DNA of 64,000 nucleotides. Source: Nautilus pompilius. Lineage: Eukaryota; Mollusca; Cephalopoda; Nautilida; Nautilidae. This document shows positions 1 to 46,076 of the stretch, in pieces. The notes below the pieces were generated by a model. The model ran no database searches, was not told the DNA's origin, and saw nothing but the letters and a program-made list of their open reading frames with translations. The translations under genes and the position numbers were made by a program. The DNA is taken from the NCBI GenBank assembly GCA_018389105.1, contig JACATO010001085.1:744001-808000 (forward strand), read 5' to 3'. Position 1 is the first letter of the stretch. Every line of letters starts with the position of its first letter.

Positions 1-1850
1 TTTAAACGAGTCTGTTATCTGACACCAGTTCTTCAAGTAGCCCATGGTCTGAAAACATTAGCCATAGCTCATCAATTGTGTTCTCTGCTGTTGTGCTATG
101 TATGTGTTTGACCTCTATCTATCTATCTAGACTGGCTATCGTCAGTACTAGGTAATAATCTCTACAGTTTTTCACAAAAATCAACATGAACTCTCTGAAA
201 TGACCAGGGGGTGCGATTTATATGTATGAAACAACACTTTTAAAGAAACATTTCTCACATTTTGACATAGTGCACCTTTAGCCCCCTCAGTCAATTTCAT
301 GGAACAGTTGTCTGTGTCTCCCAAAGCAATTCTTCAAGTATTTTCTCCCTAAACATTGCTGGAATTACTCACAGCCAATAGTAAACAATTCTGTTCACAT
401 GACATTTCAGGCTTTCGTCATCAAACTTCTGGCCAATCATTTCATAGCCATTGCTAAGTACTGGGTTAAATTTAGTTTTTCTTGCTATTAATGGGAAATC
501 ATCCTATACTACACCTAAATTATAACTTTACCCTTGTTTACCAACTTTATAATCATTGTGCCCTAATATGGATAATGCATCAACAATTAAATGATTCTAA
601 GATTCTTCATATTGAATATCATAATCATATGCTGATGGGGTCAATGCCCACTCACCTTTGCATTTTTGTGGTATGGGAGATTTAGGACCTGGTATTGCCA
701 ACAACAGTTTAATGTCGGTGACCAATGTAAAGTTCTGACTATACAGATATTGGTGGAATTTTTGTATGCCAAAGATTACGAAGAGTGCTTCCTTTTTGAT
801 TTGACCATAATTTATCTCACTAGAGTTCTTATTTGTATATGCAAATTCTATGGGTCTTTCTTTCCATCATCCATTACATGACTAATCACTGCTACAACTC
901 TCTAACTTGAAGCATTATGGGCCAGTTTTAGTTCCCTTTTTGTGTCATAATGCACTAACAATGCATCACTTGATGGAGATTTTGACCCTCATTTTCCCAC
1001 TTCCGTGGAATACCCCTTTTCAACAACTGATCAAGTGGTTCTAAATTTATAGCTAAAAATGCCAAGAATTAATAATAATAATGGATCATCCCTAAAAAAA
1101 AGGATCTAAAGTCAGACACATTACTCGGCACAGGATCTTTTGATAGCAAAATCTGGACTTCAGTGGGATGCCGACTGTCTTTGTCTACCTTCAAACCTAA
1201 ATACCTGACTTCTGGTTTTAAGAATTTTCATTTAGGTAACCTAGTGTACATTATATTTGTGCAGTCTTCCAAGTACCTCTGCTTGAATTACTAAATTCTC
1301 TTCTGCAAAATTTGGTCTATTTTGAATTGGTAAACTTTAGGACTAGATTTTTCACCATATAATAATTTAGCATACCAATACAACCCTTTGTATGTGTTTA
1401 TTGTGAGATATTCTCTACCATCTTCTTTAACACTTAACTAAACATAGGCATGTGACAAGTCAATTTTACTATAAACACCTTTGAACTACTGGGAGCTGTA
1501 AACAGATCTTGAGTTGTTAGTAATGGGTATGGTTCATCTTCTACTGTTTAATTTAGAGTAATTGTAATCCCAACATTTTCTTAGTTTTATCTGCTTTGGG
1601 TGCAATGACTACTGGAGTAGCCCACTCAGATTTTTTTCACTTATCTATCTAGTTCAGTGGTTCCCACTCAATCTGTGGATAATTACCTTTCAATGCAGTA
1701 TGTCTCAATTTTGCTGGCACTAATTTCTGAGAAAGGAATATGCCTCTGACCCTACCTCTACCAGGAATATTTTCTTCTTCAGTATCTCCCTCTTGTTCTC
1801 TTATATTTTTTGCAGTAGAAAATATGTGCACTCAACATGCAAGCTGAATA
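1..1850 (-). mobile_element. Decayed Gypsy/Ty3-type LTR retrotransposon pol fragment
   Basis: Translating the minus strand piecewise across many stops and frameshifts gives the order expected of a Gypsy pol. A reverse transcriptase start of the form SEWATPVVIAPKADK lies near 1590-1635, followed by a degenerate EDEPYPLLTTQDLF block. A post-RT block of the form VQILLSKDPVPSNVSDFRSF lies near 1100-1180, then RNase H-like remnants (600-1000), and an integrase-like stretch (APLGHFREF..D) near 190-280. No LTR is visible and the element runs off the left edge. No frame is long enough to be functional. Family assignment is firm from the RT and post-RT blocks; finer clade is not. Confidence 0.75.
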
Positions 1851-3775
1851 TTTCTTTTTCTGCTGAGAATTCACCAACCCTTTGATCAAAATCCACCATT
1901 TTGTTCTTTTTCTTGGACACACACACACACACTTGTGATGGACATTTTTTTTCTTTTTCTCTCAAAGGAAACAATACTTCTCCTCCTCTATCATTTTATG
2001 GCAGTCTTGGACATTTCAAACTTTAAATCACGGGTATTCTCTAATCCTCACTGCCAAACTGTAATATATTGGATATTAACAGGTAATTGTCTGAGAGAGA
2101 CTGAAACAAGGGACTGCTATTTCTGAACTGTTTATTGCACATGTGCTGACCAGGTCCAATGAGAGGTGGGCCCAGGAGGCCCATCTGGCCTGGGCCTCAG
2201 GCTTAGAGGGTGCATCAAAATTTCCACTTGTTTATGTTTATATTAAACTTATTAAATAACTTTCTTTTGTTTTATTTATTTGCAGAATACATGAAAGTCA
2301 AACCAACTTTGTATTATTTTAAATTATCAAATAAACCCTATGAAGAGCAGATTAGAAAGTGGAGTGAGAGAGAGTCAGAGAAAACAATCAATATAAACAT
2401 ACTGTCACTTTCCTTTGTGAATATGTACCTACCTAAATTAAAATAAGTTTAAACAAATACCTAAGCAAACAGAAATTACAACTAAACTGTGAAAAGGCCT
2501 GGTCGGATGGCCTCCTCTCAGAGGGCCTGTTGCTGAAACATCAACTTGATAAAATTATACACTACAGTAAGAAAAAATATAGGATGAACATGATAACATT
2601 ATGCTTTAGGTAACAATTAAATTTGACATTTGTAAAAATAATTTGCTAAGTCCATAATTATGCAAGAAAATTGGTATGATATCAATGCAATTAATAGTTT
2701 ATATATTTTTGATAGATGGTTTATTAGATTTTTAATGTCTTTCTGCTGAGATAATGCATTTTCATTAACAATAAAGTGTTGAAAATACAGATGGCAGTGT
2801 TTTTGTATGGCAGGCTCATGGTTTTTAAAGTCAGTGTATCATTTTATCAAATCTGTCTCAAGCACATTTTGCAACTCTTAAATTTTCTTGATTTTGTTTT
2901 TGAACGCTATTAGCTTTGATTTTTTTTTCTTGCTTTTGTTTGATATTTAAAGCTGACATTTATGCTTTAATTTTTTTTTATTTTTACTAAAACTTAAATT
3001 AATTTCCTAAATCATTTTCTAAAATATAGCTTTTAGTTAGAAAAGGATTGGGTTAAAACAATTTTTTTTAGTTGACTAAGCATAATAATTGCATCCAGTG
3101 TTGTTTTCTTTTTTCTCTAGTATTTCAAAACCCCAAAAGAAAATTTGGGGTTCACCAGTTGTACTACCTGACTAGAACAATTATTCCAACACCCCTGGCT
3201 TGTTCAGTTTTAAATTTTCAAGCCAATGCTCAGGCATAATTTTCTAAGAATTTGTTTTTACCCTTATCAATACTACAGTTAAAATTATTTTATCATTCAT
3301 TGAAAGGAGTCCCTAAAGTTTAAAGATGTTGTACATGCATATTAAGCATTTTCACATTATACAGGCTATTTCAGTTGGAAAAGGGCTTCTTTATACTGTG
3401 AACTGTCATATTTTAAAATACTCTTTCTTCCATATTTGCATAGGCAGTGGTTGTTAACAAAGGACCCTGATCCACATAGGAGGCAGTTATCTAGGTGACT
3501 GTTAATTGTTGTTACAAAGTCAGTGAAAACACAACTAAGATAAAGTAAGGCTCCTCGTGTGTTTGACAAAGTGGAGTCCCTGTAATTGTAATAAAACATT
3601 AAATAATTTTTAGTTTTCATTTGATGAAAATAATGGACTAGGTATAAGAAATATCTTTGTTTAGTACAAGCTCTTACATCTCATTCATATTTGTAATATC
3701 ACTTCCTGAATATCCATCCTGTCAACATTATATTCACAATTAAAATTTTATAAATTGTTTTATTTTGCTGCTGTT
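1851..3775. other. AT-rich intergenic sequence without recognised genes
   Basis: This stretch contains a short CA run near 1917-1932, a GC-richer island at 2150-2210 with 'ggcccaggaggcccatctggcc'-like purine/pyrimidine blocks, and T-rich runs. Small open frames here look like chance in AT-rich DNA. I see no coding signature. Confidence 0.5.
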
Positions 3776-3950
3776 CACAGTTGATTTTGGACAGACAAAA
3801 TGCTTGTAGGTTTATGTATATTCAGATTTAGTTAACCGAGGACTGCACCTTCACTACAATGTACACAGTTGATTTTGGACAGACAAATGCTTGTAGGTTT
3901 ATGTATATTCAGATTTAGTTAACCGAGGACTGCACCTTCACTACAATGTA
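3776..3950. repeat. Tandem duplication of an 88-bp unit
   Basis: The unit starting CACAGTTGATTTTGGACAGA is present twice, at 3776-3863 and 3864-3950. The copies differ visibly only by one A in the run after GACAGACAAA. The near-identity implies a recent local duplication. No protein or RNA signature is seen in the unit. Confidence 0.9.
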
Positions 3951-5138
3951 CATTAGACCATTTGAAGTCAAATTCAAGAGAAAAAACAACTAAACCATTA
4001 ATTTTACAAAATAGTGCTAACAACAAGAAGGAAAAAAAAACAAGTTTTAAATAAGCAAAATATTTTGGTTAACTAATTAAACACATGTTTACCAGAACCA
4101 TTCTCTGGTGTACTTTTGTGGTTGGCTGGCATCAGAGACTACTATACTTTTATTCCCACCGGTCTTCCAGTTACAATTAGTAGTGATATCTGTGTACATA
4201 AGGTAATAATTTTCAATAACTTTTTTGTACAGATAAAAAGTTAAAATAACATCTTTTGTAGAGAAGCAGGAGAAATAAGTAATGTTACATTAACTTTATT
4301 GGTTGTATATAAGCATTAATTTGTGGAGCTACATAGTTTATTTCAAACTTTCCTTCTGATTAAGTGTGGATAGAAATTAGAGCACCCATTTGGAACCCCA
4401 GTATATATAAAGGAACCATACCTCATTTATAAACAAGCAAAGCTCCATCTCCACTGTGAACATACAGTTACATTCTTAGTTATTGACATTTACCCTAGAC
4501 ACTAGTAATCTAACATTGGTGGGGCTGAGGCAAACATTACATTTTTACTGCATTGTTTCTGAGCAGCATAAGCATTTGTTGATGCAGTGAGAGGAAGTAT
4601 CATTGCTTCCCACCAGTTTAAATTTCAGTGGAAAGTAATTATTATTGGTTTGAATCACTTCAGCAATAAAATATAACGGTTATTTTCTTCCTTTTCACTG
4701 AAACTAGTTTAAATCTTTTAAATAATGAGCCATGACAGAGTAGAGTTAAACTCAGGAAATCCTGAAATTCAAGTTGTCTGCCTCTTTCCTACCTAACTAA
4801 TATTTCAAAAGTAATTTCAAGTTCAGTATTTTTTATTTTTTTAATGAAACCTCCGTTTTTATGGTATTTAGATTTATAAGGAAACTCTACATACATAAAA
4901 GTATAAAGTTAATTCAAAATTTTCCCCTCACCCTATTAATATTAACTGAACTATCCAAAATCCTGTTTTAACAGTCTTTCCCTGGTGCCATCATCAGGGT
5001 TTTGGTCTGCATTGATATGGCTTTGCAATGGACGTTTTTTTTTAATTTTTAATATTTTAGAGGAATAGCACAAACAGCTCAAGAATTTGTTGATCGCTAT
5101 AATTGTAGTTTTTCTTTTCACACAGCCTTGAGCAACCA
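3951..5138. other. AT-rich intergenic sequence
   Basis: No open frame with a recognisable domain, no tRNA and no transposon ends were seen. Short frames that cross 5057-5309 on the minus strand lie over transposon-derived sequence and are not genes. Confidence 0.5.
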
Positions 5139-5236
5139 AAGGTTGAGAATCTCATATCTGAAATCCTTGGGACCCGAATGTGTTTCAGATTCTGGAATTT
5201 TTCGGATTTTGGAATATAGATATACCAGCATAATTT
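5139..5236 (+). mobile_element. Half of a pogo-like MITE (one terminal end only)
   Basis: The sequence GTTGAGAATCTCATATCTGA and the following 'tttcggattttggaatatagatataccagcataatttgg' region match the reverse complement of the right end of the intact MITE at 6253-6746. Homology stops at about 5236 where the Tc1-derived fragment begins, and the partner inverted repeat is missing. Confidence 0.7.
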
Positions 5237-5253
5237 GGTAGTTAACCCACTGG

Positions 5254-5758
5254 GCTGCCATATCGCATGGTGGAAAGACAAAATCAACTTTCTTTGGAGA
5301 ACATTTCAATTCAGCTGGATACCTTTTAGCTCAAAGGCACCTCCTACCACCATATCAATAAGATATACTAAGAGTTGGTACCATATTCTTCAGGCTACAT
5401 GCCAAGTATCATCATGTGAACACAGTCTGAAAGAGGAATCAAGACATTCAACTTCTTCTCTGTGAACCCAAAAACTCTTGGATGAATGTGATCAAGCACC
5501 TGTGGGAGTATATATATTATCAGCTGAGAGAAACCCATCTGCATCCCACCAATATGATAAAATGAAAGGAAGCTCTCACACAGGTATAGCAAAACCTTGA
5601 CTGAACTATGATAAAAAAATCTGGTCAAATCAATGCCAAACAGGGTAGAGACTGTTCGTGCTGCTAAAGATGACTCAATCAAGTACTAACACAGAATTTC
5701 GCTCTACTGCTAGTCTCTATTTACTAGTTTCCACAAAAAACTGACATATTGTAATAAC
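5254..5758 (+). mobile_element. Tc1-like transposon fragment, copy 1
   Basis: Piecewise plus-strand translation gives the C-terminal third of a Tc1-type transposase: a KHLWEYIYYQLRETHLHPTN block (the 'E' side of the DDE region), then a SMPNR..TVRAAK..S.KY-like end. The frame carries stops. The fragment is nearly identical, with a constant offset of 55,682, to 60936-61439. The identical 95-residue antisense frames in both copies only reflect this duplication. The fragment lacks the upstream transposase part that is visible beside the second copy. Confidence 0.8.
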
Positions 5759-6252
5759 TGGTGAGGTCAGAGGGCCTGCAGTGATTTGTAATCATTATCT
5801 CTAATTAAGTAAAACAAACTAAAACATAATGGGTTTTGTTGTAATCAGAAAGAATAGCAAATAAAAAGAAACAAATTATGAAATACATCAGATCATTCTA
5901 ACTGTAGGAGCAGGGCAGGATACTCTGCAAACCCGTGCTGAACTCGTTTTCCTGTCACTGACCTTTTCTAGTAATGAGCCGCAGTGGAGTTTTGCCATTT
6001 TCTTATTTGCTGTCATGGCCAGTGCAAGGTCACAGAAAAGCCATTTAGCTTTAATTTGAAGAATTTTAACTAGATTAGGCCACCCACGAGATAGTGTAAG
6101 TCAGGGTTGGGTACGGTTGGTGACATGATTACCGTACCCAACAAAAGAAACAGGCCACAATAAAACTACTCAGATTGTCACAGATTTTCTTTATTTTTTC
6201 GTCATGAAACAAGACTCCGGTGACAGACCTTATGGTTTTTTCTTTTGCTTTA
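5759..6252. other. Unassigned spacer; CpG frequency rises here
   Basis: No gene is recognised. From about 5930 rightward the CpG dinucleotide becomes common (for example around 5935-6000 and 6110-6130), unlike the sequence to the left. Confidence 0.5.
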
Positions 6253-6746
6253 CAGGTCGAGCGAGAATCCCTTGTCCAAAATTCTGAAAACCGAAAAGCT
6301 CCAAAATCCGAAATATTTTTGGAGCGCCTTCATTGGAAAATTCCAGAAGGTTCCTGGGTGACACACAGGTCCTGACATGCTTGACGTATGTACATCACTC
6401 ACCTTAATTTTTGTGCTTTGTTATTGGTGGGAATATACTTTGAAAATGTCGAAAAGGCCTGCAAATACCCCTACAGTACCAGTAGGTCTACCGTAGTGAC
6501 AGCTTACCTTTCTGATGGTTAAATGTACATATTTTTCTTATGGTTTCATACACAAAATGATTTTAAAATATTGCATAAAACTACCTGTAGGCTATATGCG
6601 TCCATATGCAGTTATAATGTTGTAAGTGAACTTGTGCCCAGTCCCCACTCCTCGGTGAGTAGATACCAAATTATGCTGGTATATCTATATCCCAAAATCC
6701 GAAACATTCGGTCTCCAAGGATTTCGGATAAGGGATTCTCAATCTG
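6253..6746. mobile_element. pogo/Tigger-like MITE, 494 bp
   Basis: The left end starts CAGGTCGAGCGAGAATCCCT and the reverse complement of the right end starts CAGATTGAGAATCCCTTATC. Both ends continue with 'ccgaaa..ccaaaatccgaaa' type sequence. TA dinucleotides flank the element at 6251-6252 and 6747-6748, as expected for TA-targeting Tc1/mariner/pogo elements. There is no transposase inside. A degraded half copy lies at 5139-5236. Confidence 0.8.
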
Positions 6747-8646
6747 TAGTTCAGCAAGCCAGGTTCCGAAAGTCGAGGCTCACACGTCGCCCATAGGCCG
6801 AGTGTGCTGTCCGTCTAAACAGGTGATGGTGCTAACTGGGTACCCGCTGCTGCTAATCACTGGTTAACCCTGAGCCATGTCGGTAGGTTGGTGGGGGGAA
6901 AGGGAGTCCTGCTCGCTCATTCGTACTAATTTTGTATCAACCCTGAGCGACGTTTACTTATTTCTTCATGTTTCTCCCTAGCAACCTTACTGACCGCTCC
7001 CGCACCAACTACGGCTTCAATGGCGACTCGTGTTTGTGCGAGAGATGTACGTTCATTCTAGCAAACTATTTTGTTTCTTTTTCTTGGTGTAATTAATGTC
7101 TGTAGCCCATCTCTGATGAATGACAAGAATACAATAACTTAGCTAGAAACTGAATGACGAACCCAATATCAAAATCCGCAATAATTAATTGTACACCATA
7201 TTGATAAAAAAAATACCATATTTTAAAAAAATTCATTGTTTTTTATTAAAACAATGAAAATCATATTTTTATTTCTTGTTCACATTAATTTGTACAATAT
7301 TGTGGTGTATTATCACCAGTTATCTACGTATCACATGAGAGAAGATCTGAGTCCTGGATTACATCCCATACCTGTACCTCATGGTTGTGGGGGGCCTTCT
7401 GCCGCTGCGGGAAATGCTATGGCCAGGCAGAACCGTATATCACTTTACCTTTTTGGATGGCGTGGTTGATTTTTGTATTATTATGGATGCAAAATTGCCA
7501 TAATGTCGGGATGGTTTCGAAGTGTGGATCCCATCTCCGGTGATTATTGAAAACACTGGCCGACTCTTCTCACTATCTCGGGTGTTGCGGAACAATTGGC
7601 AGTTAAATTAAAGCATTAACACCGCATGTGGCCAACCATCCCATTAGAACCTCCACCACAGGCACCCGGAAAGCCCTGCTAGGAGGGGAACAGCCACGGG
7701 GCCGCCTGGTAAGGAAGAGAGAGTTGGACGGGGACGCTGAAGCCGACCGGAATTGGAGAGCGCGCGCCTTCAGTAGCCCACCGGAGTATTTAAAATACCT
7801 GTATCGTTCTTTGTTGTTTTTTAAAGCGTAGATAACAGAGAGCAAAAAAACACAAAACAACACATCACCTGTTAAAAATAGTTTGTGATATAAAAAGTTA
7901 CGATCAAATAACATCAGAACTTGCCTGAAATCTGAATTTCAAACAATAGTTTTTATTACTGTCAAACTTTCTTTGGTTCCATCCGTTAAAGCTGTTCACG
8001 TGTCGTGCGATGAGGTTTAAGGTGGCGTCGGCTGACCATCTGTCAACAAAGTCTAATTGGAGATTACGACTAAGCATTGACTGCCGAGAGACATGGCCGA
8101 GTTTGAATCACAACCGTTGGCTTTCCTTACATCCTCCTCGTGATGGCAACAAGGAAACCATTAGTCAGTTCTGTTACCACTAACAAGGGCCCGTCCGAAC
8201 TAACCCTCTGCTCTCTGTGAATATCGTATCCCCCAAATCACCTCCATCCAGACTTTTTTTTCTTGGGGGGTTTTGCTATTTAAAAGTCGAGTTTGGCATC
8301 ACTTCCACGTCAGATTTTATTAGAATATAAAAAAAAAACAGGTGAATTAAACTGATATTTTAATAATGCGGGGTTCTGACACCAGTCTTGTTCTTATGGG
8401 TGGGGCTTTAATTTGGCAGTAAAACCAGCCATGTTTCTGGCGCCACCATTCACCTCGAATGCATCCTGTTATATCACGGAAAAAATTATTCATTAGTCCA
8501 GTTACTCATATTTTCTGTTCTGGTTTCGGTGTAAGATGACAAGCATCAGTAACTCATGCAATGGCTGAGCTGGAAATCCTGCTTCTATCAGCAAAGTATT
8601 TCCTTTACATATCCCACTCTTATACGCTAGTTTAGAGTCAGTTGGT
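6747..8646. other. CpG-rich region upstream of the CCP gene; possible unannotated exons or promoter
   Basis: CpG is dense at 6760-7045 and 7640-7790, unlike most of the window. Short open frames occur on both strands (for example 7628-7831 plus and 7603-7914 minus), with no domain I recognise. A frame near 6968-7090 reads NLTDRSRTNYGFNGDSCLCE, and the same block offers a splice-like layout (acceptor 'tttctccctag' ending at 6981, donor 'gtacgt' at 7047). These are hints only. The distal promoter of the CCP gene probably lies in or near this region. Confidence 0.35.
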
Positions 8647-8755
8647 ATGTACTTTTACTGCACTGCGATTATGCATTGCTTACTGTGGGTAATATTGATT
8701 GCATCAGCTGCAGCCAAACACACTGTTTTAAATACACACCCTGATAATCGGAAAG
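8647..8755 (+). CDS. CCP gene exon 1: signal peptide
   Basis: The ATG at 8647 opens MYFYCTAIMHCLLWVILIAS, followed by AAA-KHTVLNTHPDNRK. This is a hydrophobic core with small residues at a likely cleavage point (Ala-Ala-Ala before Lys). The exon ends in AAAG|GTAAGT, a strong phase-1 donor matching the phase-1 acceptor of the first CCP exon. Joining makes a Gly codon and no other exon is required between them. The exon is short and lies almost 8 kb from the next. If transcription starts upstream, two short upstream frames (ATG at 8536 and 8561, the second ending at 8635) would precede it. Confidence 0.75.
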
Positions 8756-11700
8756 GTAAGTAGGAATGCTTTAATATATTATATTGTGTTATATTACACT
8801 ATACTGGCGCGGTACTACCAAGACTTCATCTGGGGATATTGTATGTGTGTGCTTTCATGCATAAGTGAAAGTAACTATTAAAGCTGCAGTAACAGTTTTT
8901 TAACCCTTCAGAGTTTCTCAAACGGTATATCTCGGCACTTCACCGGTTCTAGTTCTACTCTCACGGCCCCTGTCTGACCCGCTGCAGCAAAGCGGACCTG
9001 TCTGCACGAAAGGAATTCCATCACATTTACTTATTAACAGAGTACGATACATGTAGTGTGTATTCATAACTAATTACATCATTTAGACACTTTAGCAATT
9101 TTCAACAGTTACTTAAGTCAGCAACACCAGTTTTTTGATAGTTAGGTACCATGGCAACTAAAGTCCCAGAATTTGACGAAAACAAAGATGTAATACATTA
9201 TTTGGAAAATGAACTATCCTGTCACCGGAGGAATTTGTTGCTAAACACAGGCACATTCTGTTTAGGTAACTTTATATTGTTTTACATTTTCTTTACTACA
9301 GAATTCACTTAAACAAATGTAATCTTATAAATTTTAATTATTAAAAATTTGAGAGTTAATGTTTTATACTTCACCAAAATAAGTGTTTTATATACTTTTT
9401 AACAAAGTACTGCATTACATTTCCATTAGATTTTAAAGTAGATAAATAACGAGTTGTTAATGTTTAAGATCTCCACATATGAAATTAACTATGAATTATA
9501 TTCATAGTTAATTAAAATTTGAGATTAAGATTAATAACAGCAGCTATTGGCAGAGTGGCACCATGTTTAACTTGGTCTGAGCAGAAGTACTATGGATAGG
9601 TTCTCCCTACTAGTTCTTTATATTAGCATTTTGCTCTAGGTAATATGTAAATAACATTATAAAATTACAGTTTCGCTTTAAATACACACACCTCATTCAT
9701 TTACAGTAGAGCGCCTATTATCCGGATAATTGGACATTATCAAAAAATCGATACAAATAGAAATCGTTTACAGCATAAGTAATAAATGATTCCATTTACC
9801 TGTGTAATGTACACTCTTTAAACAACTACCATCACCGAGTACATATTTACACTACTGTAATTTGTTTAAGACAAAGGCTGAATGATTAATGGCTGATTTA
9901 AGGAAGACTTTTTTTTTGTAAGTAAATCATGCAATCTTTTAAAACACAGCAGCCGAATAGAGTCATATCCTTCTTATCCCTTCAGCTATATCATTGCAGT
10001 GTCTAGGCATTTGAAAGCCTCTGTATGCGATGACTCTTCTTAACCTTTGTCATCATCTTTATTTTCTTCTTGAGCTTTCTTCCTCCTCATCTCGTACAAC
10101 TTCGATGATTTTCTCTTCTGTTAACAGTTAACAGCCAGGGTCATTGGCGTTACAATTCATCCCCTCTCTGACAACTTCTGAATCACAATCCAAGCATCCA
10201 GGCATTCCTTTTAGTGTTACTGCTATGTCATTGATAGTTTTTATCCGTCTCTGGCCTTCTCTTTAGATCCAATTTAAAAATTTGATTCCATGCCTTCTGA
10301 AGCGTAGTATTTTTTAAGGAATTCAGAAAATCAGCTACCATCCAACAGCATACTTTAAGATCAAGATTTTAAAAAAATCCCCTAACCCTGACTTGGGCGA
10401 CGGCGGCCAATAAAACCTTCGAAAAAGTTGTTTCTTATATAGGCGTTTAATCGTTTCAATCCCTCTCTGGTCCATTGGCTGTATTACAGAAGTCACCTTT
10501 GGTGGGAGAAATATAATCTCCGACACGCCGTCCTCACGTTCCAGGAGTTCGGCTGAGAGATAAGGCGGCGCATTGTCTAGAAGAAGCAAGATTTGCTCGA
10601 CTATTCCGATGTACTTTTGGGAATTTCTTAACCTCAGGAATGAAGGTTTTGTCATACTATTCCAGAAGCACTTGAGCGTCCATCCACGTTTTTGTAATCT
10701 TCTGGTTGTTGTCAACAGCAGGCAAAGTTTTTCGCATTTTTGAATGGCTGACGTTTCTTGAGTTCAGTCAGTATTTCTCTGCTAACGTTTTACCTGATTC
10801 GCCGTTTGTTTTTCTTTTAAAACTTGTCCAGAAAGTTCACTTTATCACCCGACGAAAGAACCGCTCTTCTGCGTTTGGTAGACATTTTCACCCAAAAAAA
10901 GCTGCCGAACTCAATCGGATCGATGTCGCTTCTGATAAAGATACAGATGCGAGGTGGCCCCGCTGTACTGTCTGGTAGGAAGTAGTCAAACCTGTTTAGA
11001 CACATTTAACATTCATGAGATTTTCAGCGAATTTTTCTTTTTAAAGAAATATTTTTAATTTTCAAAATTTTATCCAGATAATCATCGCTCTACTGTACTT
11101 TTTTTTAAAAAAAAAAAAACAAACTTTCGTTTAGAAATCTGAGAGAACCGGTTGTTGTTCGTAATTACTGCTGTCAAGCGGGAAAGAGGAGGGGGATGCG
11201 TAAAAGCTGAATTTTCATTTCATCCACCACTTAGAAAAGTAAAAGAGATAAATTGTAGTAAAAAAATGGGAAGGTTAGGAACCAAGAAGGCATCTTGACA
11301 AAAAAAAATAAGTAGCCTAATAACGGCTACTTAAAGAAAAATGGCTAGAAATTTAACTAGACACCGATGGACAATTCGTCTTCCTATCCTTTGTTGCACC
11401 GTATTAGGCAGGCGTGAACTTGGTCGAGATTTCTATATCAGAAAAAACGATATATTTCCTTGTTTGAGATTTGAGATTGTCAGGCAAGGTCACCCTGAGA
11501 GTCAGTCAGACGAGCAAACAGCGGGGTCAACACCTCAGCAAAAAAAATTGTGGTAGGCAAATAAACATTTATTCTTAAAAAGATGAAAAGTATAATTTTT
11601 TTTTAAAAAATCTAAAGAATATTTATTATGAAAAAAATTCATCTGTTTAAATGTAACAAAATAATATTCTGATAGCTACATAAAATATTTTTAGGCTGTT

Positions 11701-14700
11701 CTAGTAATTCCTAATTAAAAGTTTCTCCGCATGACATCGAATTTAGTTCATTTATAACAAAGCAAAGAACATCGATTATCGCTTCATCTATAACGTAAGC
11801 ATATGACGTAAACAATAACCTCATCTATAACGCAAGTAAACGACGTCGATTATAGCTTCATCTATAACGTAAGCATATGACGTAAACAATAACCTCAACT
11901 ATAACGCAAGTAAACGACGTCGATTATCGCTTCATCTATAACGTAAGCATATGACGTAAACAATAACCTCATCTATAACGCAAGTAAACGACGTCGATTA
12001 TAGCTTCATCTATAACGTAAGCATATGACGTAAACAATAACCTCATCTATAACGCAAGTAAACGAGGTCGATTATCGCTTCATCTATAACGTAAGCATAT
12101 GACGTAAACAATAACCTCATCTATAACGCAAGTAAACGACGTCGATTATAGCTTCATCTATAACGTAAGCATATGACGTAAACAATAACCTCAATCTATA
12201 CGTAAGCATATGACGTAAACAATACCTCATCTATAACGCAAGTAAACGACGTCGATTATAGCTTCATCTATAACGTAAGCATATGACGTAAACAATAACC
12301 TCATCTATAACGCAAGTAACGACGTCGATTATAGCTTCATCTATAACGTAAGCATATGACGTAAACAATAACCTCATCTGTAACGCAAGTAAACGAGGTC
12401 GATTATAGCTTCATCTATAACGTAAGCATATGACGTAAACAATAACCTCATCTATAACGCAAGTAAATGACGTCGATTATCGCTTCATCTATAACGTAAG
12501 CATATGACGTAAACAATAACCTCAACTATAACGCAAGTAAACGACGTCGATTATCGCTTCATCTATAACGTAAGCATATGACGTAAACAATAACCTCATC
12601 TATAACGCAAGTAAACGACGTCGATTATCGCTTCATCTATAACGTAAGCATATGACGTAAACAATAACCTCATCTATAACGCAAGTAAACGACGTCGATT
12701 ATAGCTTCATCTATAACGTAAGCATATGACGTAAACAATAACCTCATCTATAACGCAAGTAAACGACGTCGATTATAGCTTCATCTATAACGTAAGCATA
12801 TGACGTAAACAATAACCTCATCTATAACGCAAGTAAACGACGTCGATTATAGCTTCATCTATAACGTAAGCATATGACGTAAACAATAACCTCATCTATA
12901 ACGCAAGTAAACGACGTCGATTATAGCTTCATCTATAACGTAAGCATATGACGTAAACAATAACCTCATCTATAACGTAAGCATATGACGTAAACAATAA
13001 CCTCATCTATAACGCAAGTAAACGACGTCGATTATAGCTTCATCTATAACGTAAGCATATGACGTAAACAATAACCTCATCTATAACGCAAGTAAACGAG
13101 GTCGATTATAGCTTCATCTATAACGTAAGCATATGACGTAAACAATAACCTCATCTATAACGCAAGTAAACGACGTCGATTATAGCTTCATCTATAACGT
13201 AAGCATATGACGTAAACAATAACCTCATCTATAACGCAAGTAAACGAGGTCGATTTAGACTAATCTAAATGTAAGCAAAAACGTAAATTGTAGCCTTATT
13301 TATAACGTAATCATACGACGTCGATTACAGTCTACTCGACAACGTAAGAATATTGCGCTCATTATAGCTTTAACTATAACGTAAGGATATGACGTCGATT
13401 ATAGCCTAATCAGTAACGTAATCAGGTGATGTCTATTATAGCCTCATCTGTAACACAATCATATGACGTCAATTATAGCGCCATATATAACGTAAGTATA
13501 TGATTGTAGCCCCCATCTTTTCATAAGTATATTACGTCGATTATAGACCCTACTATATCTAAACACGATGTAGATATAGCTTTTTATATTTAAGCACATG
13601 TCCTACATAGCCTCATCTATACGTAATTAAAGGACGTCATTTATAGCTGTATTTACCAAGTATCCATATGACGTCGATAATTGCTTCATCTATAATGTAA
13701 GTATATGATCTCGATTATAGACTTATCTACAACGTAACCATATCATTTCAATTATATTCTGAACTATGACGTAATCTTATGACGTAGAATACATCCTCAT
13801 CTATAATGTGATAATTTAACTTCGATTATTGCCTAATCTATAAGCTAATCATATGACGTCGATTATAGATTTATCTACAACGTAAGCATATCGTGTAGAT
13901 TATAACCTCGTCTGGAAAGTAAGCATAATACGTCGATCATAGCCTCGTGTATAACGTAACCATTATGTTATCGATTATGGCCTCATCTATAATGTAGGTA
14001 AATGAGGTCGACTGTAGCCACATTCATAAAGTAACCATATGCCGTAAATTATAACCTACTCTAAATATTAGCAAAAACGTCGATTATAGCCTCATTTATA
14101 ATGTAATCATATGACGTCAGTTACAGTCTACTCAATAACGTAATAATATTAGGTCGATTATAGCCTCAACTATAACGTAGGCATATGACATAGATTATAG
14201 TCTCATCTACAACGTGATCATATGATGTAGCTTATGATCGCATTTGTGATGTAAGCATTTTACGTCGATTAATGTCACATCTATAACGGGATGATATGAC
14301 GTCGTTTATAGTCTCATGTATAACGTAAGCTTATTACCTTGATTATAGCCTCAACTATAACGTAAGCAAATGACGTCGATTGTATCTTCATCTATAACGT
14401 AATCGTATTTCCTCAATTATAGCCTCATTTATAATGTAATCATATGACGTCAGTTACAGTCTACTCAATAACGTAATAATATTAGGTCGATTATAGCCTC
14501 AACTATAACGTAGGCATATGACATAGATTATAGTCTCATCTACAACGTGATCATATGATGTAGCTTATGATCGCATTTGTGATGTAAGCATTTTACGTCG
14601 ATTAATGTCACATCTATAACGGGATGATATGACGTCGTTTATAGTCTCATGTATAACGTAAGCTTATTACCTTGATTATAGCCTCAACTATAACGTAAGC

Positions 14701-17700
14701 AAATGACGTCGATTGTATCTTCATCTATAACGTAATCGTATTTCCTCAATTATAGCCTCATTTATAACGTGTGCAGATGTTTATTTTCTCGTATCGGCAT
14801 GATATGACGTTGATTATAGCCTCTTCTATAACGTATGCGTATCATTTCGATTATAGACTCATCTATACGTTTATTTCGGAATTACTTTATAACAACTTAA
14901 TTCTGTAGCAACGAACTGCAGTTCTCTCTTAATGATAGTTGAAATTTCCAGCGGAATTAAAACAGTTCACGTCATTTTCTTTTTTTTAATGTTGTCGTTT
15001 TATTTCCATCGAAAATTAAAAAATTATTTCAATTGTACCAACAGTTTAATTCTCCTTGAAATATTTAAATTTTGTATTTTTAAAAATATACATTCCATTT
15101 TTTTTGTCAGTCAAATACATTTTAAAACTTATTCTAAATATTTTTTGAAAATACTTTCACCAAAAAAGCAGCACGGAATGGATGTCTTTCTTGGCCTCTG
15201 CAGCGAAAATACCCGTATGGTCTCAGAATGGTCGCTCATTTTTCGTGTACATAAACGACACCTCCTTACGAATTGGAATAGCCAATGTGATAGTGGTCCG
15301 TTGAGCACTTTTATGTTTTCACTTAATTACCTCCCCTTACTTGAAAGTAGATTTGTGTTTCTCTGTCCTCAGATTTTGTTGCACGTTTGCATTCTATGGC
15401 ATTACACAATACTTCTAATTATCCTGCTACATGTAAACTCACACTGCATAAGAGAGTTAAGGAAAAGCCGTGTCCTCGTAGATGACTATCACCTGAAGTA
15501 TTCCCAGGAAGATTTCCAAGAGATTCTCCAGCGAACATGGAGAAAGCAGCGAAGAAATGAATAACAGTTTGTTTTTTAATTATCTCAGAAATATAAGGCG
15601 AGAGGTCTTTCGAACTTCATAAATTGGAAGATTTTGGGAGCTTTATGGAATACATTCCGCCAAAAGAACTGAGGCCCGGCAATTCAAGACGGGACTACTG
15701 ATGGAGATATAGTTGACATCAGTCATGACGAGGATTGATCAAGACAACATTGAAAACATAAAAGATAAAAACCATTTTCTAAAGTTTACTTTTCATGTTT
15801 TTCATTAATTTTAGTTCAGGGAAATAAATGGAATAAACCAATGTTTAAAATAATTAGAGAATACACCAAAGTAGCGGTTTTCCACTCTTTAGTTTAACGA
15901 AAATATTTAATGGACCGTCGCAATGATTATTATTTTTAATATTAACCTGTTTTAACACTTATTCTATTATTCACCAATATTTATTCACATTAAAATACAT
16001 TAGATTATTATCAATGTATAGACAATATTTGTGACATTTTTTTTAAATTAAATAGCGAGAATTCGATTATTACCTGCTTTTTCAATAGAGTTTTAGACCC
16101 TCACTTATCACTAATATGATTATCGTATTTTTTATGGACATTTTTCATTTTATTCGAAAGAATTATTAGAAATCTTTCATAAAAACCCTTTTCTTAATGC
16201 TTTTTTCCCCCGTGTGTGTTATGTTCTAATAGCAAGTAATTTCTAATCTCTCTCACCTGCAGTTCCTCACCTTTCCAAAAACAGTGAGACTATCGGGCAC
16301 TTTCTGAGCGAGAGGAAAGTAGCAAGACCAATTGTTTCCGTCATTAATGACCACTCACTCTTCAATTAGTAATGGACTGATCGTTCTACACACATCTCTG
16401 CTGAAACAAAGAACGCATCTCATTCGCGTTTCTTCTGTTTATTGCTATCATTTTTCAAAATCACGTAATATCGAATCCGCTTTTGTAAATTGCAGGAGAC
16501 TATGGAACCGGAAGAGATTCGCCTTGTCTGACCCCCCTTCTCGTTCTTTGCTAGTGGATTCTATTAACAATTTTCGGAAATTAATGACACTTTTAACACA
16601 AAATATTTGTAGAATGAATTTGCATTATTTACTTATTTATTTGTAATCACACACAATTATTTTAAACCGTTTATTACACTAGGTGATTGCAGAGCACCAC
16701 CGAAGATAGAAAATGGTTACCTGAAACAACGTTTCCTCAGAAAACATCCGTCGTTCAGACACAACCAAGTGGTGCGATACAAATGCAACGCAAACTTCAC
16801 AATAATCAGTTCGATCTCCAAGGCCATTTGTCACAGTGGCCACTGGCGGCGCTATAATCTCGCCTGCATACGTAAGTATACTTGGTCTGATTTGTGTCGA
16901 CGAAAATCTGTATCTGAAACAAATAAGCGAACGGCGGCTCGGGTCGGGTGACTAGGTCTGTATGAAAGGGTTAACCAGACGGCGCAGAGCCGTCTCTCCA
17001 AATAGAGTAACCCGCAATGGTTTATATTCTGTGATGCGCGGAAGGGTTTGTGAAGTTCTGTTAACGAGAGGAGCAAGTGCGGAATTCGAGGGCATTGTTA
17101 GCCCATTCCTGGCAGGGCGAAGAAAATATAGGGCGGTTCCTTCTAGTGTGAGAATAAAGGGGGCTTGTACTACTGTTTGATCTTTCACAGCCGTCTGCGG
17201 GGCCCCGCCGGATTTGGAAAATGGCCATGTTGACACGCGTTTTGATCATCGACTTCTGGGCAGAAGAATGTTCGGAGCGCACGAGGTTGTTCGGTACCGA
17301 TGTAACAAAGGACACAGCAACTGCGCCGACCTTGGAATGGCTGTGTGCCGAAACAGCCAATGGAGTGTGACCAGACTCTGCTGCAGCGGTAAGTCACGCA
17401 GTCGTTACTTTAATAAAGGGAGATAATTGTGTTCCGCGCTACAGCATTTAAAAGAGAGAATGAAATCTAAACGAGTCCTGGTTAATTTATTTAAATATTT
17501 CCGGTTTTGTTGTGTTAAATTTACAGGGAGATTGGTGGGGTTTTTTAAAAAAAATGTTAATGGTTATAATATGAATATATTCACAGGCTATTTTGTAGCA
17601 ATTTTTATGGAATGTCAACTTGCTTGTTGCAGAACAAAAGACAGTATTGATTATGAATTTAGAAACAACAGTAGTATATTTGACTGCACCATTAACTAAA

Positions 17701-20700
17701 TCAACAATTAAAACCAAAGCAAAAAGTCTGACACTGCATCTGCTTAGAAGTTATATTTTAAACTTTGTATTATAATTTTTTTAAAGTTTTCTAGGTGCAT
17801 GAGAAATACCACAGAGATCTCCTCCTTAAACTGCCACTATTGTTATTTGTTGATGTACTCTAATTTCTCACTTTTCTGGAGCTTAAATCAGCTACTACAA
17901 CTGTCATTGTCAACAGAGTATTAAATGGCTAATGGGAGATGGGAGAGGTAACTATTGTCTGACAACATCAAAATTAAAAAAAAAAAATGCCACCCCAAAA
18001 ATTATAAAGTACATTTTTTAAATATTTTCTTTAAGTATGAAAAAAAAATATTTATCTCTTTTTAATGACTACATCAACTAAATAGATTTTAAAAAAATAT
18101 ATTAAAATTTTTGTATAATATATATACTATGGATATTCAAATGAAACCAAGCCTGATACGATTGCAGATATTTTATTTTCAGTTGGGTATCATTTGAACA
18201 TCCCCAACATCAGGTATTGTAGCAATCCCTGCATGATGTACATAACCAGCGTTTAAGTTTATCCAGATGAAGCAGATGCAAATAATAATTTTTTTCTTTC
18301 ACTATTTAATTTCAGAAAATTGCACTTCTCCACCAGTTGTAAGAAATGCTGTGCACAATGAAAGTGCAACACAAAATAACTTTAGTGAAGGTGCTGTGGT
18401 TAAGTATACTTGTGAAAAGCATTACTTGCTAAGAGGTTCTGAGAAGGCATTTTGTAAGAATGGACTATGGACTGTACCTAAATTATTTTGTGAAAGTTGT
18501 AAGTAGAAGTGAAAAATTTGTTTCTGTACCTATGCCTAATGCATGAAAGAAAAAAAGAAAGCAAATTTCTGACACTGCCTATTTCACTAAACTGAATTTT
18601 TACAATAAGTTATAGGAGTATGCAGCTGATAATTGTCTTCTTTCTTTGGTTTTGTATTGTAGTCATTGTGAAAAGTAGTTTCATTATCTTGTTGTTACAG
18701 CGTATATCAAGGAAGTTATGTTGCAAGCCCCTTTTCCCTGCAGCAATGATCAATTTTTAGTACTGTTTGTACCCTATGTAGGGGTGATAAATGTAAATGT
18801 ATATCTACTAGAAGACCAATGTCTGGATATCTGTGCGAGAGAGAGAGACCAAAATGACAAGTCAGATTGATTAAAGCTGAAAACTTACACCATGAACTGG
18901 TACTTTTCTGCATTAATTCATAGTCTGCTGTTATTCTCTAAGCCTTCAATATGCCTGAATACGCACACATGACAGGAATGCCACTGATGCTGATATAAGA
19001 ACATATCTGTTAGGTGTTCCACACCTTTGATTTCTACCAAACAATCATCTAATCACATTAAAAAGATACCAGGTATTTTAAAGCATGATAATCATTATTG
19101 TATTGGTTGAATGACTTAAGTTATATTTTAACCTTTGATACATTACAAAAAAGTATGGTGTGTGTGTTATATCTCTAGTTTTTCTACTTCAAAGCACAAG
19201 ATGGCTGTCTCTGAAGCACTGATATGAAAATATTTATTTAGTTCTTATATGCATGTGTTGAAACTGAATAATTAGCAGTTGTATATGTTAAATTATATGT
19301 CCTCCTTCAAAAATGAACATTTATGCTTACTATTGTTGTGTTTGTTTGTTTAATTTTAGCTGGATGTGGGAAACCACCTATGTTGAAGAATGGCCACATT
19401 CATCGTCGGTTTTCCAAAAGAAGCCACTTTCGAGAGCACGAAATAGTGAGATACAGCTGCAATGATGGATACAGTCTTAAAAGTGTATTTGGAATGGCTG
19501 TGTGTCAGGGAAAAGTTTGGAAACATTTTCATATTCAATGCACAAGTTAGTGATTTTTATAAACATTTTTCATAAAATCTCATGCTGATGGTGGCAGGCT
19601 CATTGTAGATGATAACTGCACTTAAGAAATAAACTGAAACATTTACTGTCAGTTCTGATGTTGCATCTGTAGCACTTATTTGTACCTTAAATAGCAGTTT
19701 TAAAAATGAACCAGTGGTCACAAAAAAAGGGCTATAAAATCTTAATGATGATGACCTTTGAATCAAGTATCTGATCACAAAAGATTTTGTGAACCCCCTT
19801 CCTCCTCCAATATAAGCAAGATGACAGATGCTGTTTTCTGTGGCAAAACATGAGATGATGGGAGGTAAAATGTATTTTTATTTTTCTTGTTAATCCTCAG
19901 TACTTTATGAGAATGCACAGTTCACCTGTCTTGCAAACACTTATTTGGTAATTTCTGTAACATATATACCTTTGTGTGTAGGTGGTGGTGTCTCAGGTCT
20001 CTGATGTGTCTAGTGTGTAGTGGTGGCTTTTGGTGCTTTCTGGCTGATGCATGCTATCCTCTACACCACTGGCTAGCCACAAGGCGAAAAGAAAGCCGAG
20101 TGCGTAAGTCTCTCCTGCCAGTACATAACCTCTCCACAGTCAAAACTTCTGTAGTGCATCCTCGTGGCAATGCATGGCAACTGGACACCTTTTGGCTCCA
20201 GGCTAAACTACAGAGGATCTCAGAGCCACATGGGCCCTAGAGAATCACCATGCAGGCCCACCTGTGTGTGGACACACCCTGATGGTGATTCAACCATGTC
20301 CCTGCTTGGGTTATAGCACCAGTCATGGTCTAAATGGCGGGAGGGACACTCTCTCTGAGCAGAGGAGACCTACACAGTCCAATGGTGAAGTGTCAATAAC
20401 AGGTGTTAAGCACCTGAGAAGCTTGATAAAACAAGCCCAAATCTTTTCTTACATCATGATAGTCAAAGTCAAGTCAAATCCATGCTGGCCTGGTCATCTC
20501 CCGGCTTACCAAGGTCCGCACTGTGAGGATAGTGGGCCTCGCAGTGATAAATCAGCAACCACTACACTCACCTGCCAGAACTGTGGGTAAGTCTACATCA
20601 GAAAGCAACCTTATTTGAAACACTAAAATGTATGTACTACAACTAAAGCTCCAAGTACAAATGAAACAACCCAGCAGCACAAGTGCTAATGCTGTAACAA

Positions 20701-23700
20701 ATCTTACAAGTATGCAGGGAGCTGAATGAAACATCAGCTGTGGTGTGAAAAGAACTTGGACACAGTAGAAATCTCAACAGCTCCCAACAGAGCAAGAGGA
20801 TGACACTCATGTTACCAAACCTTTGCATTACTCAAAGAGTGGTAAACTACATCACCCAGAAAGTCTTAAGGTTATTATCTGGAAGGGAATACAAAAACAG
20901 TCAAGCCCTCATCAGACAGTCAAGAGATTAAGAAAACTATTCTTGATTCCAAATGACCTACAAGTTTTCATCAGAGGCAAAGAGAGAAGTAGGAGAGTTG
21001 AAGTGCGGTGCAAGGATAGGTCATCTGCTGAATCTCTACATAAGAGACTCAACCAAATCTGTAAAGAACAGAAAGTAAACATTTTCTGCACCCTTGGCTC
21101 CGAATACAATGAACGCAGAACATCCAAAAATAGCAGTAACCGTGTTCACAAAATCCAACTTGAAACTCAGCCTTCAGATTGTATCCCACCACCTTACATC
21201 AATGATTGCTCACAAGGAACTGAGGATATCACATCCTCCAGACTACTGAAGATACTTCAGTGGAATGCCCAATCTCTCAATAACAAACTAGATGAATTCA
21301 AACCTCTTACTGGATGAAAATATAGATATTGCTCTCATTTGTGAATCTAGAATAGAGGAAAGTGATGCATGGACAAAAAGAGTAAAAGGATATACTCTCA
21401 CCAACTTTGAAGGTGGTGGTGTGTGCATTCTCACTCAATCTAAATTTGGGATTTCTAACATCTCAACTCATTACTCTGAAGTGACCGAATACATCAGTGC
21501 TCAAATAACTGTAAACAAGAACTTCTTACATGTAACATCAATCTATGCTCATGAAGGATGCAAGAATAGCTCTGAGCTCGACAGCTTGGGCAATATCAAA
21601 CACTCATTTTTGGCAGGAGACTTCACTGTTAAAAACTCCCCGTAAGGAAGCAGCAAGAATGATGCATCAGGCAACCATCTCCAAGATTGGATCCACAACC
21701 ACAACATTGTTGTATTAAATGGCAATGAGCACACTTACCAAAACCACTCCAGTGGACAGACAGACATTATTGATATTACAATGGCCAGCCCAGATAATGC
21801 TGCACAAGTAGTCAAATGGAAGGTTCTGGATGACAGCCTAGGCAGTGATCACTTTCCAATAGAGACACAACTTGAGTATGCAGAACATGGAATTTCCAGT
21901 GCTAGTGCATCAAGATGAAATATCAGAAAAGCAGACAGACCACTTTTTAAGACCCTAGTGGGATGTAACATATCTAGCAACTACAATGTACTGCAACAAG
22001 AGAATACCATCAAGCTTGCTCAGATTATCACTACATGTATAACTGATGCAGCAAAAGTGAGCTACCCCCTGACCAAAGTTCACGAGACCTCCAACCCCAT
22101 GGTGGATCAAGGATATCGCCTCAGATAAAAGGGCAAAATGCAAAGCCAGGCATAAATGGAAAACAACCAGAAGGATATCAGACAAGATAGAATACAAAAG
22201 ACAACAGGCAACAGTGAAAAGGAATATTAAGCTGTCCAAGAGGCTTTCATGGAGGAATTTTATTGGATCCTTGAACAAAGACACTCCATCAAGAATAATA
22301 TGGAAAAAAAATCAAAGCTATCAATGGAAATTTCAAAGATGATCAACCTGCAATTTGTCAGGAAGGCCAGATGATTACGGACCATAAGGAACAGGCCCAT
22401 CTCTTTGGTGTTCACTACTCATCAAAATGCCACACAGAGGACACAACCTATGATGCTCTCTTAACATGCAAGAGCTGTAGATGGCCATGGATGAACTTAC
22501 TAACTCAGCACCTAGTCCAGACAAGATTCATAACCAAATGCTTATAGACACGCTACCAAATGGGAGAACTGCCATTCTAAATCTTTTCAATCAAATTTGG
22601 ACAAGTGGTGAATATCTGTCAACATTGATGTCAAGTCAGATAATTCCATTGCTGAAACCTAATAAAGACGAGCAAAGTATCAAATCTTACCGACCTGTGG
22701 CCCTTACTTCCTGCCTTGGCAAGCTTATGGAGAAGTTAATCAGTAAGAGACTCATATGGAGACTCCATAACGACAAGATCCCACATAGATCCTAGTGTGG
22801 TTTTCGTCCCAAATCAGGCACCATAGATGCTCTACGTCAACTAACTGAAAAGTGCCATGACACCTTACACAAGGAATACACCATAGTGGTTCTGATAGAT
22901 CTGGAGGGAGCCTTTGACAAAGTGTGGTGGGATGGTATCATTATCAAGGCAGCAGAAATTGGCATATTTGGCAGACTCCTAAAACTGCAAAGAAGTTTCT
23001 TGAGTAACCACACTATTCAAACCCAAATAGCAAATGAAATTTCAGAAAAATTCAAGATCAACACAGGAACTCCACAAGGGGCAGTTCTCAGCCCGCTGAT
23101 ATTCACTATCATGATGTACGATATTCTGTCTGTTGTTCCCGAATCTTGTCAACAAGTCACCTATGCTGACGATGGCACAACCTTCATAACTCACAAAAAT
23201 CTTGATTATGCAGTATCACAACTCAATATATGCATGAAGGCCATAGACAGGTGGGCAAAAGAGTGGAAATTGAAAGTCTCCAAGGAAAAAACAGAATACA
23301 CAGTAATTACGAAAAAGAGAAAGAACTCTCTGCCATTAGACAATCTTGGCATACAGCTGGATGGCGAAAGGATTAAATACAACAAGAACTCAATGATCCT
23401 AGGCTTCACTTTAGACCCTAGTCTCACCTGGCAGTGCATGTGGACCAACTTGTTGAAGATTGCACCAGACTATCTCATGAAAACCATCACTTCACATTAT
23501 GCAGCAAAGCACAAGTAAAAAGACTGTCAGCTATTCAAAACTCAGCTCTTTGTTTGATCACAGGAGCTCTCAGAACAACCTCAGCAGCAGCATTAGAAAT
23601 TGAAACTGACATTCCTCCTCTGGACCTATATATAGAATCAGTGATTCTAAACAGGTGACTTAGCTGTCATTTCATGCCCATAGATTCCCCAGGGCACCTT

Positions 23701-26700
23701 AAGAAAAACCATTTCCCTCACTCATTCTATGCAAGGTCTTCAAAAATCCTAAAGTCAAGAAGTATCTGTCTCCCAGACAGCAGCAGTGTTCAATTCCACT
23801 CACTTACAATCCAGAACAAGGTTCCTCCTTGAAAGTGGTCACCACCCAAGATAAAGACATCACTGCCAAGTGATGCAAGCAAGTCAGATATTCTCGCCAA
23901 GCTCCAGCAGTTTTCATTAGCGATGATCCAAGATTAATACTCCTCCAGCACTCCAATCTACACAGATGGGTCACTGGATCCCACTACTGGTATGACTGGT
24001 GCAGGCATCCATATTCCATCAGAGAAACTTAACATCATTCTCCCTCTGCCAAAATGTTCAATACTATGTGCAGAATTGTGGGCTATAGAGAGAGCAGTCC
24101 AGGAAGCTTCGACCATATCCAAAGATGACACCTCACAATCATTTGTCATTCTATTTGATTCCAAGTCCTCTCTACAATCTTTGCAGTCATACAAACCTTC
24201 TGAGCATTCCCACCAAACTCAAGCTATTCATGACGCTATTAACACCTGTTCTGCCCAAATTGCTCTCCAATGGAGTCCGAGCCATGTGGGTAACGAAAGC
24301 GCAGATGCACTTGCAAATGCGCTGCAGAAAGTGGACTAGTCAATAAAACCACTGGAACAGTGGCATCCCTACAATGTGACATCAGAAATTCCAAAAACAA
24401 CATCTGGACTAAGAGATGGGCAGGTGACTCCAAAGGTCGGAAATACTTCAATGTACAAAAGAAGCCTAATACCATCAGATACAAGTCCCTCAGCAGAAAA
24501 GATCAAGTCACTCTTTCAAGGATACGACTGCACCACTTTCCTTGTCAAAGCTACCTAGCTAGGTTTAAACTAGCTGAGGACCCAACTTGCCAACTTTGTG
24601 GAAATGAAGAGGAGGATCTTGGACATATCCTATTTCATTGTGATGAGCTTGGGACATCAGGTGATTTAACACACAAATGCTAGTTTAGCAGACCTGTTAG
24701 AAACCAGAAATGGTGAATGGTCCATCATCATCCAGATTGTCAACAAAAGAGAAAGAAAGAATCCATGCCAGATGCATGACACTACCCATAACCATAACCA
24801 TAATATACAGATTTTTGTTATGCACAAGAATTGGATGTTGAAACTAATATAACACACAGTCAATCCTAAAATTTCTGCATGTAATGAAAATAAAAATGAT
24901 GTATATTGAGGTTTTCAAAATTTTTATAATCTTTACTTTCCCAACTAGCTAAAATTATAAACAAATTTTTTAGGTATGCATTTTTAAATTATATTTTATA
25001 TTTTAAATATAAATAAAATTGAAAATTTACTTAATTCTTTGTTAGTTGGCTATTTATGCTTAATGTTTTTTTTTGTACATTTCATTATTTTTTTTTCTTG
25101 TTTATTCTTTCAGAAAACTGTGGCTTGCCACCAAACATAAGTGGTGCTGATTATCATGCTAGTAAGATGCAGAAAAGTTTCACTCATGGCACCATACTAC
25201 ATTATGTGTGTCACAATGGTTTTATTTTGAACAGTACAGATAAACATATTTCCATCTGCACCCATGGATCTTGGAGTCAGCCCAGCCTACAGTGTGACCA
25301 AGGTAGTACTTAACAGTCACTTTTAGAAAGATGATATTCTCTATTCTTCCATAAACACTGTTTTTGTTTCTTATGAATCAAATTTGAGAAGGTAAAATGA
25401 AACTCATTTAATGCCTTCAGTTTGTTTGGTGGCTGTTCAAGATGACGTTGTATCCAGGTTGAAAATGTTCATATCCTACTACTTGCCAGGCAATGTGGCT
25501 CAGTGGTGAGTGTGTTGGCTTCAAGACCTAAGGGTCCCGGGTTCAATCCCCACTGCTGGCACATTGTTGTGATCCTTGAGCAAGGTACTTTACTGGCATT
25601 GCTCCAGTTGCTGCTGGGAAGTGGCCTGTGTAGGCACTTGGACAGAAGAACCAAGGGCAGGGGATGCTCTATAGCTATGACAGAGGCAAGTCTCCTATGA
25701 TGAGGAAAAGTCAGAAGAATAAACCACTGATGAAGACGGATGCACTGGGCCAGAGTGCGCATAATGATGGTGCAATGCATCCCACTCTTATGAAATGAGT
25801 GATCAAAGAAGAAGATATCCTACTTTTATTTAACATTGCCTTTCTTTAGTTTTTCCTTCATGGGCCAGTGCCCCACAATGTTCTCTGTCTAATTCAGTTC
25901 ATTGTTTAGCTTAATAAGAGACAAACACATCCTGGAAGAAGCTCCTGATACCATGTATGTTCAGAGGGCATCACCCCTCCAAACAAGCACATCAATCATT
26001 AATGCAGTTTTTTTTTTAAAATCATGAATATTATAGAAAAGCTACAGCATAGCGCAACTAAACTGGCTAAAAAATTTTGTCATCAGAGGGTAGAAGTCTG
26101 TAAAGACAAAACAGATAAATAAAATGTATTAAGATTGCCATTTTTTTTTCACTACATTTTTCCAGGAAATTATTGTGGCTCTCCACCAGTGATTGAAGGC
26201 ACCATAAGGAAAGATGAGAACCAAAGCAGTTTTCTTGAAAACTCCATGGTAAAGTACTCTTGTATAAATGGTTTTGGCAATGAAAGTACCCAATCAGCCA
26301 TTTGTAAAAATGGCTCTTGGGTGGGACCCTTTTTGTCATGTGATGTAAAGCCACCATCTGCAGGTAAGCTTTAATTACTTTTGTCTTTTTAAAGATGAAT
26401 ACATCTAGTATTTTACTGGGGAAAATAAAACAAGACAAATTAAAACTGAAGGTGATCACAAAAAAGAGATATCACCTCAAAAAGATAGAATACAACACTT
26501 TAGGGAAAACTAGAGAGCATGATGTAATCTGCCTGGGATGCTTTATCGAGTAGAGCCAAAAAAGCATAAATGTTTTTAAAAACACACTTTATTTGCACTT
26601 AGTAAAAGAGGCACGTGTTATGTATAAGTTTTAGAAAGACTTTCTACTCTTCTGAATGTTTATGTTTGTCTGTCTATTATTTGTAGCTAACACATTTTAC

Positions 26701-33090: not shown

Positions 33091-33099
33091 TGTGTATTC

Positions 33100-46000: not shown

Positions 46001-46076
46001 TACAGATACTTACTTCAGCATGTCCTTGGAAAGGTTTAGATGAAGCCAAAAAGTCCACTTGACTTGGCTTTGGTGG
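37048..46076 (-). CDS. SMG7: SMG7 C-terminal exons including the conserved PC end
   Basis: Exons 46014-46076 (PPKPSQVDFLASSKPF), 43580-43617 (38 nt, GVPKPDSPAPGK), 38625-38755 (HQGTYSLFSSSPWSVHI), 37805-38028 (NSPDPLSEPYSSELPTLP ... GFSFNTSSDQWG) and 37048-37128 (SLWAVPGPSPLERLLEVQ to PH-stop). The YSLFSSSPWS block and the final SLW..PGPS.LE.LL..QK block match the vertebrate C-terminus, the part known to recruit the CCR4-NOT subunit POP2. The longer open frame over 36918-37175 is a different frame and not the product. Confidence 0.9.

Follow-up and report, generated by a model that had tools for sequence, protein, structure and literature searches.

The window, by which we mean the whole 64-kb stretch that was analysed, contains nine plus-strand exons for CCP (Sushi) domains, a candidate signal-peptide exon ahead of them, and the remains of two further CCP exons. 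The features of this locus, with the evidence on which each was placed, were as follows.

5933-17502, no strand: CpG-retaining domain that takes in exon 1, CCP1 and CCP2 (two-rate change-point fit of the edges)
8647-8755, plus: candidate exon 1, with start, signal peptide, short linker and phase-1 donor (sequence, join, signal and donor score)
11775-14770, no strand: satellite of a 37/74-bp unit in intron 1 (repeat analysis)
16683-16871, plus: CCP1 exon (CCP profile, join)
17191-17388, plus: CCP2 exon (CCP profile, join)
18316-18498, plus: CCP3 exon (CCP profile, join)
19360-19545, plus: CCP4 exon (CCP profile, join)
25114-25302, plus: CCP5 exon (CCP profile, join)
26166-26363, plus: CCP6 exon (CCP profile, join)
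26733-26922, plus: dead CCP exon A (weak profile match, E 0.0042)
27478-27672, plus: CCP7 exon (CCP profile, join)
30626-30783, plus: dead CCP exon B (profile match, E 3.4e-6)
31136-31318, plus: CCP8 exon (join, PDB matches)
32494-32678, plus: CCP9 exon with stop codon (join, PDB matches)

Several other elements were found in the window. On the minus strand, an exon at 56172-56300 carried an EST1 DNA/RNA-binding domain (E 9.5e-14) and a long proline-rich frame lay at 47866-48843. These two probably belong to an SMG5/6/7-type gene, a name we infer from its pieces, in a tail-to-tail arrangement relative to the CCP gene. SEC24 was rejected as the minus-strand neighbour; no Pfam match was obtained in 33,000-52,999 and no PDB match in 33,000-47,900 (E up to 0.01), and the EST1 domain points to the SMG5/6/7 type. 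A retroelement piece (RT_RNaseH, E 2.6e-10) was located at 678-863 on the minus strand. The 287-codon open frame at 40390-41253 (minus strand) gave no Pfam match and lies where CpG is somewhat raised; judged by eye, it is perhaps a young transposon. Within the CCP4-CCP5 intron, a LINE-type element occupied 22796-24339 of the plus strand; its frames encode reverse transcriptase and RNase H.

The joined gene and its CCP exons

Joining exon 1 to the nine CCP exons gave an open stretch of 1,815 nt, equal to 605 codons including the stop or 604 amino acids, with consensus-like splice sites, in agreement with the preliminary description, which had put the joined gene at exactly 605 codons. AATAAA words follow CCP9 at 32909 and 33058. 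All eight internal exons have a length that is a multiple of three and are of phase 1-1. The join had also been said to be free of frame conflict, and it is indeed open; as evidence for exon 1 this agreement is weak because, with every internal exon of phase 1-1, any phase-1 first exon would fit and agreement is nearly automatic.

Sushi (PF00084) was the sole Pfam family on the joined product, with five stretches among the nine domains passing singly. In our own CCP profile, which was built from seven of the window's CCP exons, CCP8 fell below threshold (E 0.43) and CCP9 was unlisted. Both were recognized through PDB matches, in which the last 122 residues (CCP8-CCP9) matched factor H (E 8.7e-19) and beta-2-glycoprotein I (E 9.5e-16). 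The description of the locus as a CCP-only gene stands. The chain ends in RECYKGN, five codons past the last cysteine region, and is free of a membrane anchor by eye, which would fit secretion. Among the domains, CCP1, CCP2 and CCP4 group together as kin at 33-46% identity, and CCP5 and CCP6 are 42% identical.

We read two stretches overlooked in the preliminary description as dead CCP exons. In exon A (26733-26922), Tyr stands in place of the first Cys, Arg in place of Trp and TT at the donor position, and an in-frame acceptor/donor pair was not found for it. In exon B (30626-30783) the frame is broken inside the exon, and its two frame pieces, set against CCP7, show 44% identity across the aligned positions. 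As many as eleven CCP units would therefore once have been part of the gene or been copied in it. Since all internal exons are of phase 1-1, the two decayed exons could be skipped without harm, and they illustrate how a gene of matching phases may lose domains harmlessly.

The probable first exon and its rarity

Exon 1, short and easy to overlook, is 109 nt long and consists of 36 codons, MYFYCTAIMHCLLWVILIASAAAKHTVLNTHPDNRK, plus one base, followed by GTAAGT. Its coordinates, its AAG|GTAAGT donor and the 7,927-nt length of intron 1 all bear out the earlier account of a 36-codon exon with a strong phase-1 donor 7.9 kb before CCP1. In the signal region, small residues come after the hydrophobic core LLWVILIA, and cleavage would probably fall near the ASAAA|KH junction, giving the joined CCP protein a predicted mature N-terminus of about KHTVLNTHPDNRK. 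Translation could alternatively begin at 8671, where another in-frame ATG, with A at −3, would give a shorter signal peptide. The closest in-frame stop upstream of the exon 1 start is at 8566. Two upstream ATGs that had been pointed out were present: that at 8536 opens a 10-codon frame stopping at 8568 and that at 8561 a 24-codon frame stopping at 8635, both ahead of the main ATG. The DNA of exon 1 is single copy in the genome searched (727.6 Mb in 2,558 contigs).

Each ATG was scored on whether it opened a signal-peptide-like stretch with a phase-1 donor after it, using a home-made score and a generic donor matrix, with exon 1's own values, chosen after exon 1 had been seen, as the thresholds. 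The two strands of the window together yielded 80 candidates, and the sole donor at the level of exon 1 was its own, reached from two ATGs. Eight candidates were found on the plus strand of 1-16683, where the exon 1 donor scored 11.82 and the next best donors 5.85, 5.73 and 4.33. At these post hoc thresholds, block-wise dinucleotide shuffling of 1-16683, repeated 300 times, never reached the exon 1 level (six of the 300 shuffles passed a looser cut). Nor did any of the 205 candidates that entered from 200 kb of other DNA of the same genome, taken as twenty 10-kb stretches on both strands; there, the looser cut passed two distinct donors. One of these, in stretch L004, resembles by eye a real secreted-protein exon. 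The predicted signal peptide, earlier called a textbook one, passes this home-made score, and its combination with the donor does not recur in the controls at that level.

These counts bear on whether a different first exon starts the gene, either one beyond the window upstream or a non-coding exon joined to some other signal exon, so that 8647-8755 would belong to another transcript or to none. Exon 1 is short, its score was set after the fact and the window covers just 8.6 kb upstream of it, all of which leave such an arrangement some room. Against it, every other plus-strand donor in 1-16683 scored 5.85 or less vs. 11.82, and neither the shuffles nor the 200 kb of other DNA produced a site at the exon 1 level. 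We consider another first exon very unlikely and keep 8647-8755 as the start of the coding sequence.

CpG retention and the start of the gene

The window is mostly depleted of CpG, with 44 of its 64 one-kb bins below 0.3 observed/expected (O/E), and the domain at 5933-17502 stands out from this background. CCP1 and CCP2 have CpG O/E of 0.98 and 1.02, respectively. The intron-1 satellite is part of the domain with a high CpG count of its own, and its flanks are CpG-retaining as well. Exon 1 holds only two CpG (O/E 0.47), below the level of its domain. Further downstream, CCP3, CCP5 and CCP6 have zero CpG, and CCP4, CCP7, CCP8 and CCP9 have O/E of 0.52-0.62. Elsewhere in the genome, in 17 ten-kb stretches (three stretches adjoining the window were excluded), 95 of 170 bins fell below 0.7, the other 75 reached or exceeded this value, and 14 lay between 0.4 and 0.7. 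CpG content in this genome is two-state, as mosaic methylation leaves it. CpG-retaining domains with sharp edges were seen in the window (5933-17502) and also in stretches L004, L005 and L011. A repeat pair flanking the 5′ CpG edge (5134-5240 and 6664-6751, 73% identical) was tried as a clock and rejected, as it has too few CpG differences.

With a start near 8.6 kb, the first 37% of the gene span is CpG-retaining. The domain fits exon 1 as the 5′ end but is no proof, since such a footprint reflects methylation of the germ line in the past and is not direct evidence on transcripts. In a two-state genome such as this one, a CpG-retaining domain can point to where a gene begins even if a tiny first exon lies 8 kb off.

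The 3′ edge of the domain falls inside the gene, 114 nt beyond the CCP2 donor, and therefore leaves room for an internal start. The main transcript could begin near this 17.5-kb edge or just before CCP4, at an ATG such as 19323, and encode a shorter secreted CCP4-9 form, with exon 1 minor or unused. The reading from ATG 19323, MLTIVVFVCLILAG, runs straight into CCP4 and has a higher signal score than exon 1 (5.13 vs. 4.41), and CpG depletion begins at 17,502. The acceptor tracts of CCP3 and CCP5, however, are also signal-like on read-through, as expected by chance, and we take the stretch at 19323 as an artefact because pyrimidine-rich acceptor tracts tend to read this way. An internal start would also leave the open, well-spliced CCP1-CCP3 unused. 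The kinship of CCP1, CCP2 and CCP4 spans the CpG edge and thereby ties the 5′ and 3′ portions of the gene to each other. An edge within a gene has precedent in octopus, for which a class of 6,545 genes is described as lacking methylation over the first third and carrying it toward the 3′ end (PMC9476566). We regard an internal main start as unlikely, and a start at exon 1 remains the preferred reading.

Intron 1 does contain the satellite and transposon insertions reported for it, the satellite at 11775-14770 and a DDE_1 transposase piece (Pfam) within the minus-strand frame 10335-10763. A 223-codon stop-to-stop frame without a Pfam match also lies in this intron (14893-15564, plus strand). 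The satellite holds 22 TGACGTAA, 33 TAACGTAA and three TGACGTCA words, with zero elsewhere in the window; the 55 TGACGTAA or TAACGTAA words fall within 3.1 kb. That this array works as a set of bZIP-like sites, keeps the 11.6-kb domain unmethylated and switches between the full-length form and an internally started, shorter secreted one strikes us as highly improbable.

The signal exon is supported by the rarity of its signal and donor combination, by its phase-1 donor, which is compatible with the CCP acceptors, and by the CpG-retaining domain, and the gene model of the preliminary description is very probably right. We are fairly confident that the gene has ten exons, that its coding sequence opens with 8647-8755 and that its product is secreted and has nine CCP (Sushi) domains. 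The sequence, the exons with their phases, the rarity of exon 1 and the CpG domain were observed; the splice join, the start site and secretion are what we infer here. Transcription would begin upstream of 8647 in CpG-retaining DNA, and the 7.9-kb intron 1, swollen by a transposon and a satellite, would be spliced out. The phase-1 donor at 8755 would join the phase-1 acceptor at 16683, and the signal peptide would direct the chain into the secretory pathway, with no anchor after CCP9 to hold it. A complete gene model is thereby proposed where homology alone misses the 5′ end.

Known CCP proteins and the molluscan host

The host is almost certainly a mollusc by its haemocyanin loci, and probably a cephalopod. 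Of 15 candidates scored for the haemocyanin beta-sandwich family PF14830, which is molluscan, 14 matched, with seven of them on one contig and seven on another, and one haemocyanin unit of this genome matches haemocyanins in PDB. Seven haemocyanin units per chain are found in nautiloids and octopods. A vertebrate origin, to which the domains and the CpG-poor DNA had first pointed, was rejected on the strength of the CpG histogram and these haemocyanin loci. Other Sushi loci were also encountered when 150 of 487 candidates were scored: contig C617:1551415-1555983 (minus strand) has a single 1,549-codon frame with many Sushi repeats, and contig C1005:26201-36122 (plus strand) has Sushi copies ~336 bp apart.

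The kind of gene described here is well known and its layout is ordinary; vertebrate CCP protein genes usually consist of a signal exon and, after it, CCP exons of phase 1-1. When the whole joined chain was compared with PDB, it matched CR1, factor H, CR2 and FXIII-B, which shows kinship of domains and does not identify an orthologue. The vertebrate CCP proteins (factor H, CR1, CR2, coagulation factor XIII B and beta-2-glycoprotein I) are likewise chains of CCP domains, and the PDB matches extend over several domains; they differ in that none is a one-to-one match with this gene. As the host is a mollusc, vertebrate complement regulation is not to be assumed for the product. Regulators of complement activation (RCA) are defined in part by cofactor or decay-accelerating activity. 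For RCA proteins, motif patterns are described in many phyla, molluscs included, and the criterion given in that source is an ordered series of motifs M5-M3-M1-M2(-M4) across three CCPs (PMC6683126).

We claim, from the predicted chain, only that the product is a soluble, secreted CCP-only protein. Our guess is that it serves as a soluble binding or matrix protein of the mollusc, in defence or in shell building. Sushi/SCR/CCP is listed as a shared shell-matrix domain (PMC8257504), and a shell set of Nautilus pompilius is given with two 'Sushi-like protein' contigs (PMC8700984). Molluscan Sushi-bearing shell matrix proteins, those of Nautilus included, are likewise secreted and Sushi-bearing, a likeness drawn by description and not by sequence.
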